From contig NZ_JACEFB010000017.1 of NCBI RefSeq assembly GCF_013694095.1, positions 1-64,000 of the forward strand: a DNA stretch of 64,000 nt, written 5' to 3'. This DNA is from Thermogemmata fonticola (GTDB lineage: Bacteria > Planctomycetota > Planctomycetia > Gemmatales > Gemmataceae). The notes beneath the pieces are model-generated. The model did not search any database and had not been told where the DNA came from. It was given only the letters and a program-made list of their open reading frames with translations. Every line of letters begins with the position of its first letter. Position 1 is the stretch's first letter. Below, one piece after another: positions 4,064-33,056 of this stretch. Position numbers and translations under genes: made by a program.

Positions 4064-6628
4064 ATGAGACGTTGGCTGTACGGCGTGGCGGTCCTGGTTC
4101 TGTCGGCTGGAGCCAGTCCAGCGCAGGAGGGGGCCGTTTCCCCCTGGTACCGGCTTTACGACGGCATCACGGCCTACATCGTCAACCCGCAGGGGAAGGA
4201 GTTTACGCTGGAGTGCCACATCAAGGACAGCAATTTTTTGGAGGTGGGTCCGCGGGAGGTGCTGGTCAAGGTGTACGATCCGCAGGGGAAGGCAGTGGTG
4301 CGGGAGGTGATTCCCGACGACGGCATCCCCGGTGGTGACACGGAGGTGGCAGCGGGAGGCTGGGACCATGTGGCGTGGCTCTTGGCGTACAGTTATCAGC
4401 GGGGCGCGACGCCGCTGGTGCGCTGGCGGCATTTTCACGAGCCGACGCGGTTGGCCGCCTTGCCTCAACGGAGCTTCCGCTATCGCGTTCACGGTCCGCC
4501 CGGCATTTACCGGTTGCTCCTCGTGGGCTGTCCGGATCATTTTGTGAGCTTCCGTTTGACGCCGGGGCTGGCCTACGGAGTGGCGGGGCACCCGTATTTC
4601 CTGGCCCTGGAACCGCGGCACCAGCGGCGGCACTTCCTCTACGTCCCGCGCGGCGCCACGGGAGTGAACATTGTGCTCTCCGATCTGGATTGGCCCAGTC
4701 CCGGCACCTTCACCTTACGGACGGCCCAGGGAGATGTGCTCTTTCGCGGAACAATTCAGGGTCTGATGACCACGGCCTCTGTGGCCTTCGCCGATCCGCA
4801 GAAAATGCAGGAAACGATCCTGGAGTGGGAATGCGCGGAACGCGAGGCGGTGTATCTGGTCGATGTCAAATGGACGTTCCCGCCGCAAAAGTCGATCCGG
4901 TATCGCGGCACGTATGCGGTGGCGGCGGTGTGGTGTCCCGATGCGGCAACAGCGCGGCAGATTCACAACGGAGCGATCTATCACGGCGGGGAGGTGTTTT
5001 GGCAGCCGTGGCAGGTGCGCCTGTACGACTGGCTCCAGAAGCTGCCGGAGAGCGAGCGGAGCTATCCGCCGGAGGCCCTCAAGCCGCGGGATTTCCTGCC
5101 GGTCAACGGTCCCTATTACGCCTCGCCCCCGTGCGATCTGCTCTTGCACAGTTACTTGCAGAAGCCGGAGCGCCGCCTGCTTTTTGCTGCCATCGAGGAC
5201 TTGGCCAAGGGGCTGCGTTCCATCGGGCCGAACGACCTGCCGAACGTCACCCTCGGCTATTTCGCCAACATGGCTTATGAGTTTGGCAATTACGCCTGGC
5301 TGAACTGGCGGCCGGCCTGGCTGCTCTTGCAACGGAGCGAGGCGCCGGAAGAAGTCAAAAAGCTGGTGCACGAGGCGATGCTGACTTGCGGGGACCGCCT
5401 GGCGTTCTGCCGCACCTGGGAACGGGTCAACGGCAACGCTTTCGCGCAGATCGTCGCCGCCCTGGCCTATAGCAGCCGGGCCACGGGGGACCCGCTTCAG
5501 CAGGAGCTGTTCCGCACCTATTTGCAGCGCTTTGCCACCGGGGGCTGGGGGCCGCGGGTGGGGATCGGGCCATCTGGCTTCTGCCAGGAAGGGTTCGGCT
5601 ACGACCACCATTATGGCAGCTACATTTTGGCGACCTGGCCGGCGGTGCTGCGCGACCTCCAGGAACCGCAGATGCAACAGATTTACGACCGCATCCGCCG
5701 GGGGTACAGCTACACGATGAATGAGGAATCGGCAGCCAATCCCTGGAGTTCGCGGACGCAGTATCCGCCGCATCGGCCCATCGAGCGAGAGGGGGAGTTT
5801 GCCTGGAAGGGGCTGCCCGGTCCGGACTTCACCACGAGTGTCAACGGGGGGAACGAGTGGTTTGCGGCGCGGCGCTCCCGCTATTACATCCTCACCTATC
5901 ATGGCCGGTTGACGCCCAAATGGGCCGGCAATGCCTTCCTCGGCCAGATCGGCTACGGCGGCGGAGCGCTCTGCCAGTTCCACATTCCCGGCTACGGCAC
6001 GGTGCTGGACTCCCGCCTGGCGGGGGACTACGGCCGGGGGATGCATCCGTCCCAGTGGCGGCAGTTCCACCTGCACACTCTGGCCGGGCAAATGGCCGAT
6101 GGCCGACCGCTGGTGGCTGCCGACAGCGAACACCTCAACGCCCGGCTCCAGGGCCAGACCGTGCAAAGCAGCGGCGAAGTCCGCGACGCCCCGGTCCAGG
6201 TCTTCCGCCAGTACGAATACCAGCCCGACGCCGTCCAGTGCTCGGTCCGCCTCAGCGCCACGGAGTTCCGCCCCTTGCTCGACCTGTGGATTCCCCATCC
6301 GCAGCGCAGCCAGATCGCCGAGGCGTATGAGATCATCCCCTACCTGCCCCTCCAGGCGGCGAAGAAAGGGCAAAAGCCGAAGCCCACCCAGGTCACGGCA
6401 GAGGATGCCCAGGGGAAAGCCCTCGGCCCCGTCCCGACGGATCGGTCCCTGCTGGCCCGAAAGGTCCGCATCGACCGCGGCGGCTTTGGCGTCATCATCG
6501 AGCTGGATCGCGACCGCCCCGTCCGCCTCGGCCCCAATCACACCCTCTGGATCGTCCTGGCCGAACAACCCACCGAGCCGGACAAAATCGCCCTGACCTA
6601 CCGCCTCGTCCCCTTCGTGCCGGAGTGA
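4064..6628 (+). CDS. Large secreted protein with a polysaccharide-lyase-like alpha-toroid signature
   Basis: The 854-residue product starts with a signal peptide (MRRWLYGVAVLVLSAG, cleavage after SPAQ). The first 300 residues look beta-rich. A helical middle part (about 330-560) contains NGNAFAQIVAALAYSS near residue 456 and GFGYDHHYGSY near 513, and the remainder (about 580-854) is again beta-rich. The order helical toroid with Asn and His, then beta-sandwich sheets, resembles polysaccharide lyases of the heparinase/hyaluronate-lyase type, whose chemistry uses Asn, His and Tyr. This assignment is inferred from motif style, not from a search. The start at 4064 has GGAGGG 7 bases upstream. The last codons are duplicated just after the stop. 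Confidence 0.7.
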   Translation: MRRWLYGVAVLVLSAGASPAQEGAVSPWYRLYDGITAYIVNPQGKEFTLECHIKDSNFLEVGPREVLVKVYDPQGKAVVREVIPDDGIPGGDTEVAAGGWDHVAWLLAYSYQRGATPLVRWRHFHEPTRLAALPQRSFRYRVHGPPGIYRLLLVGCPDHFVSFRLTPGLAYGVAGHPYFLALEPRHQRRHFLYVPRGATGVNIVLSDLDWPSPGTFTLRTAQGDVLFRGTIQGLMTTASVAFADPQKMQETILEWECAEREAVYLVDVKWTFPPQKSIRYRGTYAVAAVWCPDAATARQIHNGAIYHGGEVFWQPWQVRLYDWLQKLPESERSYPPEALKPRDFLPVNGPYYASPPCDLLLHSYLQKPERRLLFAAIEDLAKGLRSIGPNDLPNVTLGYFANMAYEFGNYAWLNWRPAWLLLQRSEAPEEVKKLVHEAMLTCGDRLAFCRTWERVNGNAFAQIVAALAYSSRATGDPLQQELFRTYLQRFATGGWGPRVGIGPSGFCQEGFGYDHHYGSYILATWPAVLRDLQEPQMQQIYDRIRRGYSYTMNEESAANPWSSRTQYPPHRPIEREGEFAWKGLPGPDFTTSVNGGNEWFAARRSRYYILTYHGRLTPKWAGNAFLGQIGYGGGALCQFHIPGYGTVLDSRLAGDYGRGMHPSQWRQFHLHTLAGQMADGRPLVAADSEHLNARLQGQTVQSSGEVRDAPVQVFRQYEYQPDAVQCSVRLSATEFRPLLDLWIPHPQRSQIAEAYEIIPYLPLQAAKKGQKPKPTQVTAEDAQGKALGPVPTDRSLLARKVRIDRGGFGVIIELDRDRPVRLGPNHTLWIVLAEQPTEPDKIALTYRLVPFVPE

Positions 6629-6653
6629 CGAGCTCGTCCCCTTCGTGCCGGAG
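6605..6653 (+). repeat. Duplication of the gene's last codons across the stop
   Basis: A 21-base sequence encoding the last Leu-Val-Pro-Phe-Val-Pro-Glu codons occurs at 6605-6625 and again, identically, at 6633-6653. The stop codon lies in the 7-base spacer. The period is 28 bases. Confidence 0.85.
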
Positions 6654-6974
6654 GGACGAGAGAGGGGAAGCCAGGGGACAAAGGCAGGGGTAAAGATAAG
6701 GAGACTCAACAGAAGCAAGGGGACTCCGAAGGCAAGGGGACTCCGAATCCGAGCAAAGGGGACTCCGAAGGCAAGGGGACTCTGAATCCGAGCAAAGGGG
6801 ACTCCGAAGAGAGAAGACGCGGAAGAAAGGAGGCTCAAGCGGGTGCTGGGCGGGGCACCGGGATGGACCGGTGCGGGACCGGTGAAAGGGTATGCCGATG
6901 AAAGGGCAGGCCGGTGAAAGGGACAGGCTTCCTCCGTGGCTACTAGGATAAGGGATGAGGCCGGAGGAAGTGCG
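6629..6974. repeat. Repeat-rich intergenic region (39-bp and 16-bp tandem units)
   Basis: GGGGACTCCGAA (one copy has T for C) starts at 6719, 6736, 6758, 6775 and 6797. The alternating 17 and 22 base spacing shows a 39-base higher-order unit present about 2.3 times. Further on, CCGRTGAAAGGG occurs at 6879, 6895 and 6911 with an exact 16-base period. No gene is seen. The purine-rich bias of the + strand is marked. Confidence 0.85.
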
Positions 6975-8285
6975 ATGCGGATTGCCTACATCACCGCCGG
7001 TGCGGCGGGCATGTTCTGCGGCAGTTGCCTCAAGGATAACACGCTGGTCGCTGCCCTGCGGCAAGCCGGGCAGGAGGCCGTCCTGATTCCGACCTACACG
7101 CCGATCCGCACCGACGAGGAGGATGTGAGCCTGCCGCGGGTCTTTCTCGGCGGCATCAACGTCTATCTGGAGCAGAAGTTCGCCCTTTTCCGGCGGACGC
7201 CCCGCTGGCTGGACCACCTTTTCAACCGCCGCTGGCTGCTGCGCCTGGCCTCCCGCTTCGCCTCCCGGACCCCGTACCGCGAACTCGGCGAGCTGACGGT
7301 TTCCATGCTCCGCGGGATGGACGGGAACCAGGCTAAGGAGATCGCCGAGCTGGCCCAGTGGCTGGCCGAAGAGTGGAAGCCCGAAGTCGTGGTGCTGACC
7401 AACGCCTTGCTCTCCGGCATCGTCCCAGAAATCCAGCGGCGCACCGGCGTGCCCGTGGTGGTCACCCTCCAGGGGGATGACATTTTCCTGGACGCCCTGC
7501 TGCCGGAGCACCGCCAGGAGTGCCTGCCGCTCATTCGGGCCAACTGCGCCCAGGTGGCCGCCTTCATCGCCACCAGCCGCTATTACGCGGACTACATGGC
7601 GGAGTATCTCGGCCTGCCCCGTGCCAAGATCGCGGTGATCTACCCCGGCATTCAGTTGGCCGGATGCAGCGGGGCGCGGCCCATCCGGCGGGAACCCCCG
7701 TTGACCATCGGCTACTTCGCCCGCATCTGCCCGGAGAAAGGCTGGCATCAACTCGTCGAAGCCTACTGCCTGTTGCGGCGTAAGGGGCGGAACCTGCCGG
7801 CGCTGCGCTTGAAAGTCGGCGGGTATCTCGGCGCGGCGGAGCGGGAGTACTTCCAGGAGCAGATGGCCCGGTTGGAAAAAGCTGGTCTGGCGGGGGAAGT
7901 CGAGCATGTGGATTGCCCGACGCACGCGGACAAGCTGCGCTTTTTGCAGTCGCTGGACCTGTTCTGCGTGCCGACCGTTTACCGGGAGCCGAAGGGGCTG
8001 TATCTGCTGGAGGCGTGGGCCAACGGGGTGCCGGCGGTGCAACCGGCGCATGGGGCCTTCCCGGAGTTGCTGGAGCGCAGCGGGGGCGGGGTCCTGGTTC
8101 CGCCGAACCAACCAGAAGCGCTGGCCGACGCCCTGGCCGAGCTGATCCTCGACCCGGACCGCCGAGAGCGCCTGGGTCAAGCCGCCGCCGCCGCCGTGCA
8201 TCAGGCCTTCACCGCCGAACGCATGGCCCAGGACACCCTCCAGTTGCTGGAACGTTGCCGCACTCTCACTACATTGCCATCATGA
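6975..8285 (+). CDS. GT4-family (GT-B fold) glycosyltransferase
   Basis: The 436-residue product should transfer a sugar from a nucleotide-sugar donor. The N-terminal half carries the glycine-rich acceptor-side loop (AGAAGMFCGSCLKDN, residues 8-22). The C-terminal half has the start of the donor domain (LTIGYFARICPEKGWHQLV, about 243) and the donor-site E-x7-E region in VYREPKGLYLLEAWANGVP (about 335). No signal peptide or membrane helix is present. The ATG at 6975 has GGAGGAAG 5 bases upstream. Its TGA overlaps the ATG of the next gene (ATGA at 8282-8285), so the pair is translationally coupled. The acceptor is unknown. Confidence 0.88.
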   Translation: MRIAYITAGAAGMFCGSCLKDNTLVAALRQAGQEAVLIPTYTPIRTDEEDVSLPRVFLGGINVYLEQKFALFRRTPRWLDHLFNRRWLLRLASRFASRTPYRELGELTVSMLRGMDGNQAKEIAELAQWLAEEWKPEVVVLTNALLSGIVPEIQRRTGVPVVVTLQGDDIFLDALLPEHRQECLPLIRANCAQVAAFIATSRYYADYMAEYLGLPRAKIAVIYPGIQLAGCSGARPIRREPPLTIGYFARICPEKGWHQLVEAYCLLRRKGRNLPALRLKVGGYLGAAEREYFQEQMARLEKAGLAGEVEHVDCPTHADKLRFLQSLDLFCVPTVYREPKGLYLLEAWANGVPAVQPAHGAFPELLERSGGGVLVPPNQPEALADALAELILDPDRRERLGQAAAAAVHQAFTAERMAQDTLQLLERCRTLTTLPS

Positions 8286-8743
8286 GCCGCACCTATACCA
8301 CCCGCCGGCGGGTCGAATTCGGGGATACCGACCTGGCCGGCATCATGCACTTTGCCAACTTCTTCCGCTTCATGGAATCGGCGGAGACGGAGTTCCTCCG
8401 CTCTTTGGGGCTGACGGTGAGCTGGCGGGATGCCGGCGGGCGCTGGGGCTTCCCCCGTGTCCAGGCGGCCTGCGAGTATTTCCAGCCGGCCCGCTTCGAG
8501 GACCTCCTGACCATCACCGTGACGGTGGAACACGTCGGGCAGAAGTCGGTGCGCTACCGCTTCGACTTCAGCAACGAGCAGGGGCAGACGATCGCCGTGG
8601 GGCGGATCACCGCCGTCTTCTGCCGGGCGATGGGGCCAGACCGCCTGGAAGCGGTCGAGATTCCCCCGGAGGTCCGCCAGCGCTTGCAGGGCGACGAGAC
8701 GCCAGACTTGGCCCACATCCCCCCTGTGCCGGACGTGCCGTGA
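8282..8743 (+). CDS. Hotdog-fold acyl-CoA thioesterase (4HBT/YbgC type)
   Basis: The 153-residue product has the 4-hydroxybenzoyl-CoA thioesterase signature near its start, VEFGDTDLAGIMHFANFFRF (residues 10-29), with the catalytic-type Asp at residue 15. The core FQPARFEDLLTI and a long C-terminal tail follow. The family hydrolyses acyl-CoA or acyl-ACP thioesters in the cytoplasm, and the natural acyl group cannot be read from sequence. The start overlaps the upstream glycosyltransferase stop by four bases, and its own TGA overlaps a GTG start of the next gene, so three genes are chained by 4-base overlaps. Confidence 0.87.
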   Translation: MSRTYTTRRRVEFGDTDLAGIMHFANFFRFMESAETEFLRSLGLTVSWRDAGGRWGFPRVQAACEYFQPARFEDLLTITVTVEHVGQKSVRYRFDFSNEQGQTIAVGRITAVFCRAMGPDRLEAVEIPPEVRQRLQGDETPDLAHIPPVPDVP

Positions 8744-20628: not shown

Positions 20629-20967
20629 ATCTGTGATCTCCTCTGATGTCTGCCGCGGAGGTATTGCCCTGTTTGCAAGCAGGACCCCGTGAGCCGGAGT
20701 CCGTGAGCCGGAGTCCGTGAGCCGGAGTCCGTGAGCCGGAGTCCGTGAGCCGGAGTCCGTGAGCCTGCAAGAGAGATCAGTTTAGCAACGGCAGGGTCCG
20801 GCGGAAAGGCGGCGGTCACCCGTGGCGTCACCCGCGGTGCACCCGTGGCGTCCCGAAGCCTCCGGGCAGGAAAAACAGCAATAACCCCTCGGCGTCCCCG
20901 AAGACCCGCCGGGTCTCAAAGGTGCAGAGGGATTCATCGCAAAGATGTCCAAGGGTTCACCAGAGAT
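20629..20967. repeat. 14-base tandem repeat array in the intergenic region
   Basis: CCGTGAGCCGGAGT is repeated five times without change from 20687 to 20756, plus 9 bases of a sixth copy to 20765. Each unit contains TGA, and because 14 is not a multiple of three the array closes all three + frames. No gene is seen in the interval. The core TGAGCCGGAGT recurs once at 58183, in another repeat. Confidence 0.9.
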
Positions 20968-29534: not shown

Positions 29535-29788
29535 CGGCAGGACGGCAGAACAGGCGCCCCTGAGCGGCCCGCCTCGGGCTTCACCAATTGCTCGCGCAGC
29601 CTCCCCTGCCTACGGACCTTCCCCTTTCTGAATCTTTTGTCCATAATGGACACAGTTTCAGAAAGCGCGGGGCACGGCATAGGCGGAAGAGGGCCGACTT
29701 TCCCGTCCCGGCTGGAAGGATTGCCGGAGGGGGAAACCAGCCCAACCTGTGCGGTTCCCGAAGAACAGGTCCGAGAGGAGGGGGAACG

Positions 29789-30511
29789 ATGAGCGAGCGA
29801 TTCACCACGGCGCTGGGCGGCGAGGCGGCGGGGGAATGGGGCAGCGGGATTTGCCGGAGTGCCTCCCTGGCGAATCTCGCCAAGGCGCTGGCCCAGGCCC
29901 AAGCGGAGCTGAAAAACCCGCCGAAGGATCGGGTCAACCCGCACTTCAAGTCGAAGTATGCCGATTTGGCAACGGTGCGGGACTGGGTGCTGCCGGTGCT
30001 CAATCGCCACGGGTTGAGCGTGGTGCAGTTGCCGTGCGAGGGGTCGGGTCGGCCGGCCTTGTTCACGCTGCTGTTGCATGAGTCCGGGGAGTATTTGGGC
30101 GCATGCTTGCCGTTGCGGCTGGTCAAGGATGATCCCCAGGGCATGGGTTCGGCCCTGACGTATGCCCGGCGGTATGCCCTGCAAGCTCTGGCAGGCGTGG
30201 CGGGGGAAGAGGATGACGACGGCAACAGCGCCAGCGGCACGGTTCAGCGCAGCCGTCGCGGTGCGGACCGGCGGGAGGAAAGCCGGCGGCGCATGCTGGA
30301 CTATTTCCAGCAGACCCACGGGGTGACGGCGGAGCAGGTGTGCCAGGCGGTGGGGGTCCAGCGCCCGGAAGAGATCGAGGAGACGCACCTGCGGCGCCTG
30401 CGGGACATCGCTGTGGCCCTGAAGAGCGGCCAGCCGGCCCGTGCTTTTTTCCCGTCCAGTCCCTCGACAACCGTTCCTCCAACCACGGCCAGTTTGCCCT
30501 CCGCCGCCTGA
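29789..30511 (+). CDS. ERF-family single-strand annealing protein
   Basis: The 240-residue product matches the ERF recombinase family. The core is SLANLAKALAQAQAELKNPP, NPHFKSKYADLATVRDWVLP, HGLSVVQLP, LLHESGEYLGACLPL, and DDPQGMGSALTYARRYALQA followed by GVAGEEDDDGN (about residues 28-150). The C-terminal 90 residues are variable and basic. ERF proteins anneal complementary single strands during recombination and are usually phage-borne. Here no integrase, exonuclease or capsid gene is near, so it is an isolated remnant or a domesticated gene. GAGGAGGGGGAA directly precedes the ATG at 29789. The frame is open upstream to 29588 but lacks coding character there. Confidence 0.87.
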   Translation: MSERFTTALGGEAAGEWGSGICRSASLANLAKALAQAQAELKNPPKDRVNPHFKSKYADLATVRDWVLPVLNRHGLSVVQLPCEGSGRPALFTLLLHESGEYLGACLPLRLVKDDPQGMGSALTYARRYALQALAGVAGEEDDDGNSASGTVQRSRRGADRREESRRRMLDYFQQTHGVTAEQVCQAVGVQRPEEIEETHLRRLRDIAVALKSGQPARAFFPSSPSTTVPPTTASLPSAA

Positions 30512-30688: not shown

Positions 30689-31495
30689 GTGGCTGTGAGT
30701 GCGACAGGTTCGTTACCTTCGGAGCCGGAACGGCTGGATGTCATCGCGGTGGCACCCCATCCTGATGACGTGGAGATTCTCTGCGGCGGCACCCTGGCCA
30801 AGCTGGTGCTCTTGGGGTACCAGGTCGGCATCTTCGACCTGACGAACGGGGAACCGACCCCGCGCGGCAGCGTGGAGAAGCGGCTGGCGGAAGCGGAACA
30901 AGCCCGCCGCATCCTCGGCGTCCAGGTGCGCAAAAACATCGACCTGCCCAATCGTGTTCTCATGGATTGCCCGGAGAATCGCTTTCGGCTGGCCACCGAG
31001 TTCCGGCGGTACCGCCCCGGCATCATCCTCGTGGCTTATGGCCGCACGCCAGCCGCTTCCCCCGACCATTACCAGGGCCAGCTTATCGCCGAGGCGGCCC
31101 GCTTCTACTCCCAACTCACCCGCTGGGATGACCGCTTCGGCCACACCGCCCCGTACCGCATTCCCCATCTCGTGTACGTTCCGTTTCCGTTCGATGCGGA
31201 GAATCGCCACTGGCATAGCCAGTTTGTCATCGACATCACCGACACCATCGAGCAGAAACTGGCGGCGATCCGGGTTTACGAGTCGCAGTTTGACGCTAGC
31301 CGCTTCCAGCGGGTGGAGCACATGATCCGCTCGGTCAACGGCTATCATGGCGCCCGTTGCGGTTTCCACTACGGGGAGTTGTTCGCCCTGCCGGCGCCGG
31401 TTGGGGCCACGGACCTGGTCCAATTGGTTCACGGCAGCAAAGGCTCGCTTGCACCGGTGCAACTGCCGGGCAAGGATCATCTCCCCACCGGCTGA
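30689..31495 (+). CDS. PIG-L/LmbE-family N-acetyl-sugar deacetylase (BshB1-like)
   Basis: The 268-residue product has the zinc-binding PHPDD motif (about residue 21), DLTNGEPTPRGSVEKRLAEA (about 50), ARRILGV (about 72) and PDHYQGQLIAEAA (about 129), the pattern of PIG-L deacetylases. The closest style is BshB1, which removes acetyl from GlcNAc-malate in bacillithiol synthesis. No other bsh gene is nearby, so the substrate is inferred. The start is uncertain: GTG at 30689 or GTG at 30695, with no strong ribosome-binding site. Confidence 0.82.
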   Translation: MAVSATGSLPSEPERLDVIAVAPHPDDVEILCGGTLAKLVLLGYQVGIFDLTNGEPTPRGSVEKRLAEAEQARRILGVQVRKNIDLPNRVLMDCPENRFRLATEFRRYRPGIILVAYGRTPAASPDHYQGQLIAEAARFYSQLTRWDDRFGHTAPYRIPHLVYVPFPFDAENRHWHSQFVIDITDTIEQKLAAIRVYESQFDASRFQRVEHMIRSVNGYHGARCGFHYGELFALPAPVGATDLVQLVHGSKGSLAPVQLPGKDHLPTG

Positions 31496-31901
31496 GGCAT
31501 CGCTTCCCCTGGGTTCCAGTCGGGGGCGGGTCAAAGGCCGTGGCGGCGGTCGGCGTGCGGTGGTTAGGCTTCGAGCTTTTCTCGGCGAAAAAGCCCATCC
31601 GCTGGGAAGCGGTCGGCTGCTGCTGCGGTGGGTGGGAGGAAGGAGCGCCCCTGCCTTACGAGTCCCGGCGGTGGGACATCCCGTCGGCTGCCACGGTTGG
31701 AAAATCCGGTTTCTACGGGTGGAAAATCCAGTTCCCACAGTTGGAAAATCCGGTTGCCAGTGGGCGGAAAATCGGAACCTTCGGGAGGGAAAATCGTAAC
31801 GCCGGGGCAAATTCCCTCATGGCAGGGGGGCGAGACTGAAGGTATGATGGAAGAAAGAAGGCCGAATCGGCTGTCCGTCGCAACCCCAGGTGGAGACAGG
31901 T
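31496..31901. repeat. Intergenic region with five phased GGAAAATC octamers
   Basis: Exact GGAAAATC starts at 31699, 31721, 31743, 31766 and 31788, so the spacings are 22, 22, 23 and 22 bases. Flanking bases are partly shared (TTGGAAAATCCGGTT in the first and third). The last copy ends 106 bases before the next ATG. Two helical turns of spacing place all sites on one face of the DNA. No gene is seen in the interval. Confidence 0.85.
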
Positions 31902-33056
31902 ATGCGCTGCCGACACTACTGTGCTATCGCTCTGTTTGTGCTGGGCATGCTCGCCATCCTGCCCGTTCGTCCCTCGGCCCATCTCCTGGCCCAGAAAGGG
32001 GAGCCGCCGGTCGAGGAAACCTTCTCCACGGCGGATGGCGTCATTCTCCGTGGCCTGTTTTACAAGGCGGCGCAAAACTCCTCCTCGGCCCCTGTCGTCA
32101 TCCTGCTCTATCCGCCGGGTCAACGCGGGGCGGAGACCGATATGACTAAGGGGGACTGGGAAGGATTAGCGCGGCGACTCACCCAGGAGGGGTACAACGT
32201 CTTCCGCTTCGACTGGCGCGGACACGGCAAGCGGGGGCATGAAATCAAGGATAAGGATGTGTTCTGGACCAATCCCTACACCGGGCCGTGGAATGTCAAG
32301 TACGTGACCGGCTTTGGGAAAAAGCCGCTCAAAAATGACATCTACTTCAAGGACATTCGCGATCCGCTACGCTACATGCCGGTCTATCTGCTGGACCTGG
32401 CGGCGGTGCGTGCCCATCTCGATGCGAAGAACGACCTGCGGGATTGCAACACCAGTTCCCTCTATCTCATCGGCGCGGGCACGGCGGCGACCCTGGGCAT
32501 GGCCTGGATCGTGACGGAATGGTACCGCCCAGCGATTGCTCCGGGTGTGGCGGAGATTCTTCCCGCGGCACGCTATGAGTTTGTGCCCCAGCGGATTGCC
32601 GGGGGGGTCAAGGTGCCGGCGGGGGAGGACATTAGCGCGGCCGTCTGGCTCAGCCCGATTCGGCCCAGTGTGGTCAGCGAAACCTTGGCCAAAAGCTGGA
32701 TTAGCGCTTATGCGCCCAAATTGCGCGACAACAATCCCATGCTCTTCCTCTATGGGGATGGCGATGCCATAGCCCAGCGGGATGCCCGCTTCTTCTTCCA
32801 CGAAGTTCTCGTCGGTGCTGGCAACCGCCAACTCGGCCTCAACCCTCTCAATCCAAAATACCTCTTCTCCATCAAGGGGGCGAAGAGTCTCTCCGGCGTC
32901 GGCCTGTTGGGCAATAACGCCACGCTCAAAACCGAGGACACCATCTTGCAGTTCATGTCCGCTATTCAGAAGGAGCGGGCCAAGGTGGCGGCGCGCAATC
33001 GCGGCTACAGTGCCCCGCTCTTCATCGATCTGAGGTACTTTGGCTTCACGCCGTGA
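31902..33056 (+). CDS. Exported alpha/beta-hydrolase-like protein lacking the nucleophile
   Basis: The 384-residue product has a signal peptide (CAIALFVLGMLAILPV, to about residue 30) and an alpha/beta-hydrolase layout: VVILLYPPGQRG (oxyanion region, about 65), YNVFRFDWRGHG (about 100) and a strand-turn-helix at LYLIGAGTAATLGMAW (about 195). In active enzymes this turn is GxSxG; here it is GAGTA, so the catalytic Ser is missing. A late Asp region LFLYGDGDAI is kept. It is probably a binding or structural derivative. GTGGAGACAGG precedes the ATG at 31902. Confidence 0.72.
   Translation: MRCRHYCAIALFVLGMLAILPVRPSAHLLAQKGEPPVEETFSTADGVILRGLFYKAAQNSSSAPVVILLYPPGQRGAETDMTKGDWEGLARRLTQEGYNVFRFDWRGHGKRGHEIKDKDVFWTNPYTGPWNVKYVTGFGKKPLKNDIYFKDIRDPLRYMPVYLLDLAAVRAHLDAKNDLRDCNTSSLYLIGAGTAATLGMAWIVTEWYRPAIAPGVAEILPAARYEFVPQRIAGGVKVPAGEDISAAVWLSPIRPSVVSETLAKSWISAYAPKLRDNNPMLFLYGDGDAIAQRDARFFFHEVLVGAGNRQLGLNPLNPKYLFSIKGAKSLSGVGLLGNNATLKTEDTILQFMSAIQKERAKVAARNRGYSAPLFIDLRYFGFTP

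Follow-up and report, generated by a model that had tools for sequence, protein, structure and literature searches.

A row of five identical octamers, GGAAAATC, stands in front of a hydrolase-like gene of Thermogemmata fonticola and raises the question whether it is a set of protein-binding sites kept by selection or the remnant of a tandem repeat. The first-pass annotation of this DNA had taken the former view, proposing selection on the octamer rather than a fresh tandem duplication and pointing to operators and iteron arrays. We have examined the array itself, its surroundings in the window (the whole stretch of 64,000 nucleotides that was analysed), the rest of its genome, and the corresponding DNA of relatives.

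Results

An octamer array between two genes

The array and its neighbours are as follows.

29588-30511: match to ERF, a single-strand annealing family; neighbour of the array
30689-31495, + strand: PIG-L-family (GlcNAc-PI de-N-acetylase) gene, upstream; family match
31667-31686, + strand: possible very degenerate extra copy, weak; GGGACATC core with two mismatches, some 25 nt ahead of copy 1
31691-31800, + strand: 22-bp tandem array of five copies, the first three about 80% alike and the last two sharing mainly the octamer
31699-31706, + strand: octamer GGAAAATC, copy 1, exact match
31721-31728, + strand: octamer GGAAAATC, copy 2, exact match
31743-31750, + strand: octamer GGAAAATC, copy 3, exact match
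31766-31773, + strand: octamer GGAAAATC, copy 4, exact match
31788-31795, + strand: octamer GGAAAATC, copy 5, exact match
31819-31848, + strand: promoter-like site ATGGCA-18-TATGAT, consensus match only
31902-33056, + strand: alpha/beta-hydrolase-like gene, downstream, 384 aa; Pfam Hydrolase_4, 27.1 bits (cut-off 27)

Exact matching on the + strand confirmed the five octamers and their steps of 22, 22, 23 and 22 nt as first reported. The array lies inside the 406-nt gap between the PIG-L and hydrolase genes, and the 106 bases given between the last octamer and the next gene also agree with our start codon, the ATG at 31902; the GTG at 31890 could serve instead. The protein encoded there has, by eye, a signal-peptide-like start. 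The promoter-like site sits between array and hydrolase gene, beginning 24 nt past the last octamer; it is the single such match found, and shuffling the 600-base region gives an expectation of 0.1.

Across the window the octamer occurs 11 times where 2.05 occurrences are expected, a total reached in none of 100 shuffles, and the regular spacing makes chance placement of the five untenable. Identical 8-mers in chains of four or more, with near-constant gaps of 12-45 nt, occur at 5 places, this array included, in a 464-kb sample of the same genome (the window plus 20 stretches), and at 0 places in an order-2 Markov copy of that sample.

A tandem unit with an invariant core

The repetition is not confined to the octamer. 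Tandem Repeats Finder recovered a 22-nt unit, CCACGGTTGGAAAATCCGGTTC, at 31691-31759 (3.1 copies, 80% matches), with a fourth copy placed in register. Copies 1-3 differ from one another in 9-23% of the 22 columns, copies 4-5 differ from copies 1-3 in 41-55%, and copy 4 differs from copy 5 in 36%. Outside the array, the profile score of the degenerate copy at 31667-31686 is reached at 30 of 63,861 positions. Because copies 1-3 share flanks beyond the octamer, the octamer was not copied alone, and tandem duplication is part of the story; to that extent the proposal of selection instead of duplication is not supported. In its make-up the array consists of head-to-tail copies of a unit in the range of about 10-100 bp, as minisatellites do.

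The other half of that proposal, that the octamer is spared, fared better. Nine columns of the 22-column unit are invariant, and eight of these are contiguous and constitute the octamer, a contiguity equalled in 47 of 100,000 column shuffles. When decay at a uniform rate was simulated on a tree resembling that of the array copies, a run of eight appeared in 0 of 2,403 kept trials (of 40,000), the longest run being 7. Uniform decay is a poor fit to the invariant core, and the octamer is indeed better preserved than the spacers. Even divergence along the unit is the neutral expectation for a tandem repeat, rather than a requirement for membership of the class, and the octamer is spared beyond that even-decay null. 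The array was, however, noticed because of its core, which may account for part of the apparent sparing: some 100 arrays, extrapolated genome-wide from about 22 non-triplet arrays per Mb, could each have displayed such a core. This ascertainment lessens the point that core conservation makes against a minisatellite, and does not remove it. Because the core is invariant while its flanks differ, an operator array specific to this species stays in contention.

The array in its own genome and among relatives

The first-pass annotation had suggested looking for the octamer at this spacing elsewhere in the genome and upstream of orthologues of the gene at 31902. Neither search found it. Outside the array, the 4.8 Mb of the own genome contain no two octamers spaced 20-25 nt apart. 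Such pairs are present in 9 of 99 genomes (the own genome and relatives): all four pair matches of the own genome are this array, and the other eight genomes carry 1-2 isolated pairs each. The hydrolase search gave a match in 36 of 41 genomes, own included, and the octamer was found upstream of the match in 0 of 29 relatives on either strand within up to 600 nt (27 stretches had the full 600 nt and two were shorter; the distance runs back from where the protein match begins and may take in some coding sequence).

The single genus mate examined, G001, keeps the gene order, with a hydrolase protein 82% identical and the PIG-L gene likewise upstream. Its intergenic region between the same two genes is 455 nt long, and the + strand of that region has no octamer even at two mismatches; the - strand has 1 at one mismatch and 4 at two. 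Relatives that keep the intergenic region and lack the octamers were what the first-pass annotation had named as speaking against its view, and on the + strand G001 is such a relative. Over the 90 nt before the start codon the two species are identical at 34 of 90 positions without gaps, a value that 20 of the 4,064 other offsets equal or surpass, which hints at a weak kinship of the promoter regions and at none over the array. The intergenic DNA of G001 is barely alignable to that of the own genome, and a distance of this size possibly allowed site turnover.

Taken over the own genome, the genus mate and the 29 relatives, the array is restricted to one locus and one lineage, which is usual for minisatellites though not strictly required of them; over the same comparisons we found no conservation of sites at orthologues or in a regulon, by which an operator array would be recognised. 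Nor is there a clear excess of single sites in the 464-kb sample, where related 14-mers number 19 against 13.5 expected (sd 4.3; Markov model). All 12 sites that were checked among those with one mismatch fall within a stop-free frame (155-1,004 aa), a weak indication, as the array's own stop-free frame measures 367 aa; the longest open frame across the array is antisense to the PIG-L gene.

Other tandem arrays

Arrays of a non-coding type, defined by a period that is not a multiple of three and not by gene calls, are abundant in this genome: 10 with units of 14-40 bp were found in the 464 kb (about 22 per Mb). Identical criteria yielded none in a 200-kb sample of G001, which is a draft in 270 contigs and may have lost repeats in assembly. 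At the G001 counterparts of three array sites (L230:11203, 20687 and 6714/6879, the last identified by a match for the downstream gene only) the repeats are missing. Species-specific arrays are the rule at the few places checked, and the octamer array behaves alike.

Three of the window's other arrays are as follows.

6714: 17/22-bp composite array
6879: 16-bp array
34422: 29-bp array

The first two belong to a series of three different arrays (28 bp, 17/22 bp composite, 16 bp) that occupies about 320 bases at 6605-6928, upstream of a gene at 6976. At 20687-20765 a 14-bp unit, CCGTGAGCCGGAGT, is repeated 5.6 times without a flaw and is absent at the G001 counterpart; its perfection probably reflects recent expansion. 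One 40-bp unit is found in tandem at L238:11505-11626 (3.0 copies) and at L238:12638-12799 (4.1 copies), about 1 kb apart and nearly identical. A 23-bp unit with a GGGAAAGCGGATG core and paired-copy variants, repeated 6.7 times at L230:11203-11355 (G000:C1, about 591202), fills the gap just before a gene that by eye resembles an ABC-transporter ATPase. A family of GGRAAA-cored arrays is clear in the own genome only for this 23-bp array and the octamer array, other hits being irregular; the reversed-pattern control (148 matches against 56) is an unfair one, since the reversed word has other dinucleotides.

Octamer chains in public collections

Three octamers at 20-24 nt spacing occur in at least 117 stretches of many unrelated genomes and in 27 viral stretches, so that a spacing of about 22 bp between these octamers does not point to any single system. 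Of 144 loci from two public collections, chosen for having three octamers at this spacing, 134 contained chains of three or more. Among the matches listed, 82 of the 134 chains have gaps that are all multiples of three, suggestive of coding repeats; most of the chains printed show the near-identical spacers of ordinary tandem repeats. Several viral contigs (L187:7998-8051, L190, L194, L196, L200, L204 and L205) share a conserved direct repeat with a GGGAAAATCCC core at 23-nt spacing; in L187 it falls within the open frame at 7577-8398, which may be a replication gene that contains an origin. In Atopobiaceae, TGTGGAAAATCC arrays at 23 nt occur at L108:16-138 and L132:7418-7471, the former adjoining a gene that by eye resembles a metal ATPase; the reverse complement of TGTGGAAAATCC resembles a DnaA box. 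In literature searches covering bacterial minisatellites, planctomycete tandem repeats, Thermogemmata, phased sites and the octamer, no title or abstract start concerned the array.

Discussion

With some confidence, though well short of certainty, we regard the array as a lineage-specific, partly decayed intergenic minisatellite, born of slippage and without a dedicated role. What we observe in its support is a repeat that occurs once in the genome, is missing from the genus mate and the 29 relatives examined, and shares its genome with many similar non-coding arrays. A unit of about 22 bp, CCACGGTTGGAAAATCCGGTTC, would have multiplied head to tail between the PIG-L and hydrolase genes, probably by replication slippage. 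Point mutations and a 1-nt indel, seen in the 23-nt step, would have come after the multiplication, with copies 4-5, at the downstream end, decaying further than copies 1-3. Beyond possibly modulating the downstream promoter, such an array would have no dedicated function; it would be one of many in its genome, of little importance beyond strain typing. Against this account stand the contiguity of the eight invariant columns, the small resemblance of copies 4-5 to copies 1-3 outside the core, and the position of the array just upstream of a promoter-like site.

It is possible, if distinctly less probable, that the array is a species-specific operator, in which five sites about 22 bp apart bind one regulator, for example as a row of response-regulator dimers, and control the hydrolase promoter. 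The octamer is conserved beyond the uniform-decay null and the promoter-like site begins close downstream, so that this part of the original operator or iteron proposal retains some footing. The genome gives no sign of a regulon, having no second array or spaced pair, and the genus mate has none; the octamer is missing upstream of the hydrolase in all 29 relatives, single 14-mers are only slightly in excess, and no regulator family was matched among the seven neighbouring proteins scanned. The geometry is also less favourable than first thought. DNA has a helical repeat of 10.5 bp per turn, at which steps of 22, 22, 23 and 22 bp produce, by arithmetic, drifts of about 34, 34, 69 and 34 degrees and leave the first and fifth octamers about 170 degrees apart. 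The earlier argument that the sites share one DNA face holds only at about 11 bp per turn, and it is weakened unless the bound DNA adopts such a repeat. Rather doubtful, in our estimate, is a combination of the two accounts, in which slippage supplied the 22-bp phasing and selection now keeps only the octamer for a putative regulator of the one hydrolase gene, the minisatellite having been recruited as a cooperative operator. If true, tandem duplication would here have given birth to a phased regulatory array, and were the octamers bound, the locus would illustrate on a small scale how a tandem repeat can turn into a phased operator row, the repeat and its preserved core both being still discernible.

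The remaining explanations are far less probable. An RNA element in the leader, or a short coding repeat, has slim prospects: copies 1-3 could on paper form tiny GGA-AAA-TCC hairpins, but on neither strand is the folding better than that of shuffled sequences (z 0.82 and 0.41), the window has no Rfam match, and a coding repeat is rejected because a period of 22/23 nt changes frame at every copy. We give slightly less credit to replication-type sites, whether DnaA boxes or plasmid or phage iterons. Iterons are often 20-23 bp apart, and copy 2 read in reverse complement (TTTTCCACC) differs by one base from the DnaA-box-like motif TTTTCCACA; the other copies are further from the box, however, and the genes with a DnaA C-terminal domain are both on other contigs, C7 and C12. 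No replication initiator was found among the seven neighbouring proteins scanned, and neither initiator gene nor origin adjoins the array as far as these draft contigs extend; the iteron part of the original proposal thus found no support, nor did DnaA boxes. The two DnaA C-terminal domain matches are separate ones, at G000:C7:60370-60567 and G000:C12:83948-84145. Equally improbable is a curved stretch of phased A-tracts (AAAAT every two turns) upstream of the promoter. An A4T tract is present in every octamer, and one repeat spans about two helical turns, but a wedge model (phased A6 control, 0.445) predicts a ratio of end-to-end to contour length of 0.986, a bend equalled or surpassed in 1,120 of 1,598 window segments. 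Curved DNA was rejected on this ground, the predicted curvature being no higher than background.

Comparison with known systems

Among regulatory systems, the closest likeness is to the rows of phosphorylated BvgA (BvgA~P) dimers in Bordetella, which, in the excerpted text of PMC7250471, occupy sites at 22-bp spacing upstream of promoters. The sites described in that excerpt are bound by head-to-head dimers, with the last abutting the -35 element, whereas here the putative sites are exact direct repeats, and a gap of 24 nt separates the last of them from a hexamer that is no more than promoter-like.

The intergenic minisatellites and VNTR loci of bacteria, to which we provisionally assign the array, offer the broader likeness: a unit of tens of bases repeated head to tail between genes, restricted to a lineage, in a genome with many such arrays. 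Examples are the promoter tandem repeats of M. tuberculosis (in the excerpt of PMC12817950) and the minisatellites among the variable segments of E. coli (in the excerpt of PMC2884548). The octamer array differs from such loci in that its copies are diverged rather than over 90% identical, which makes it an old array, and in that its 8-bp core is unusually well kept.
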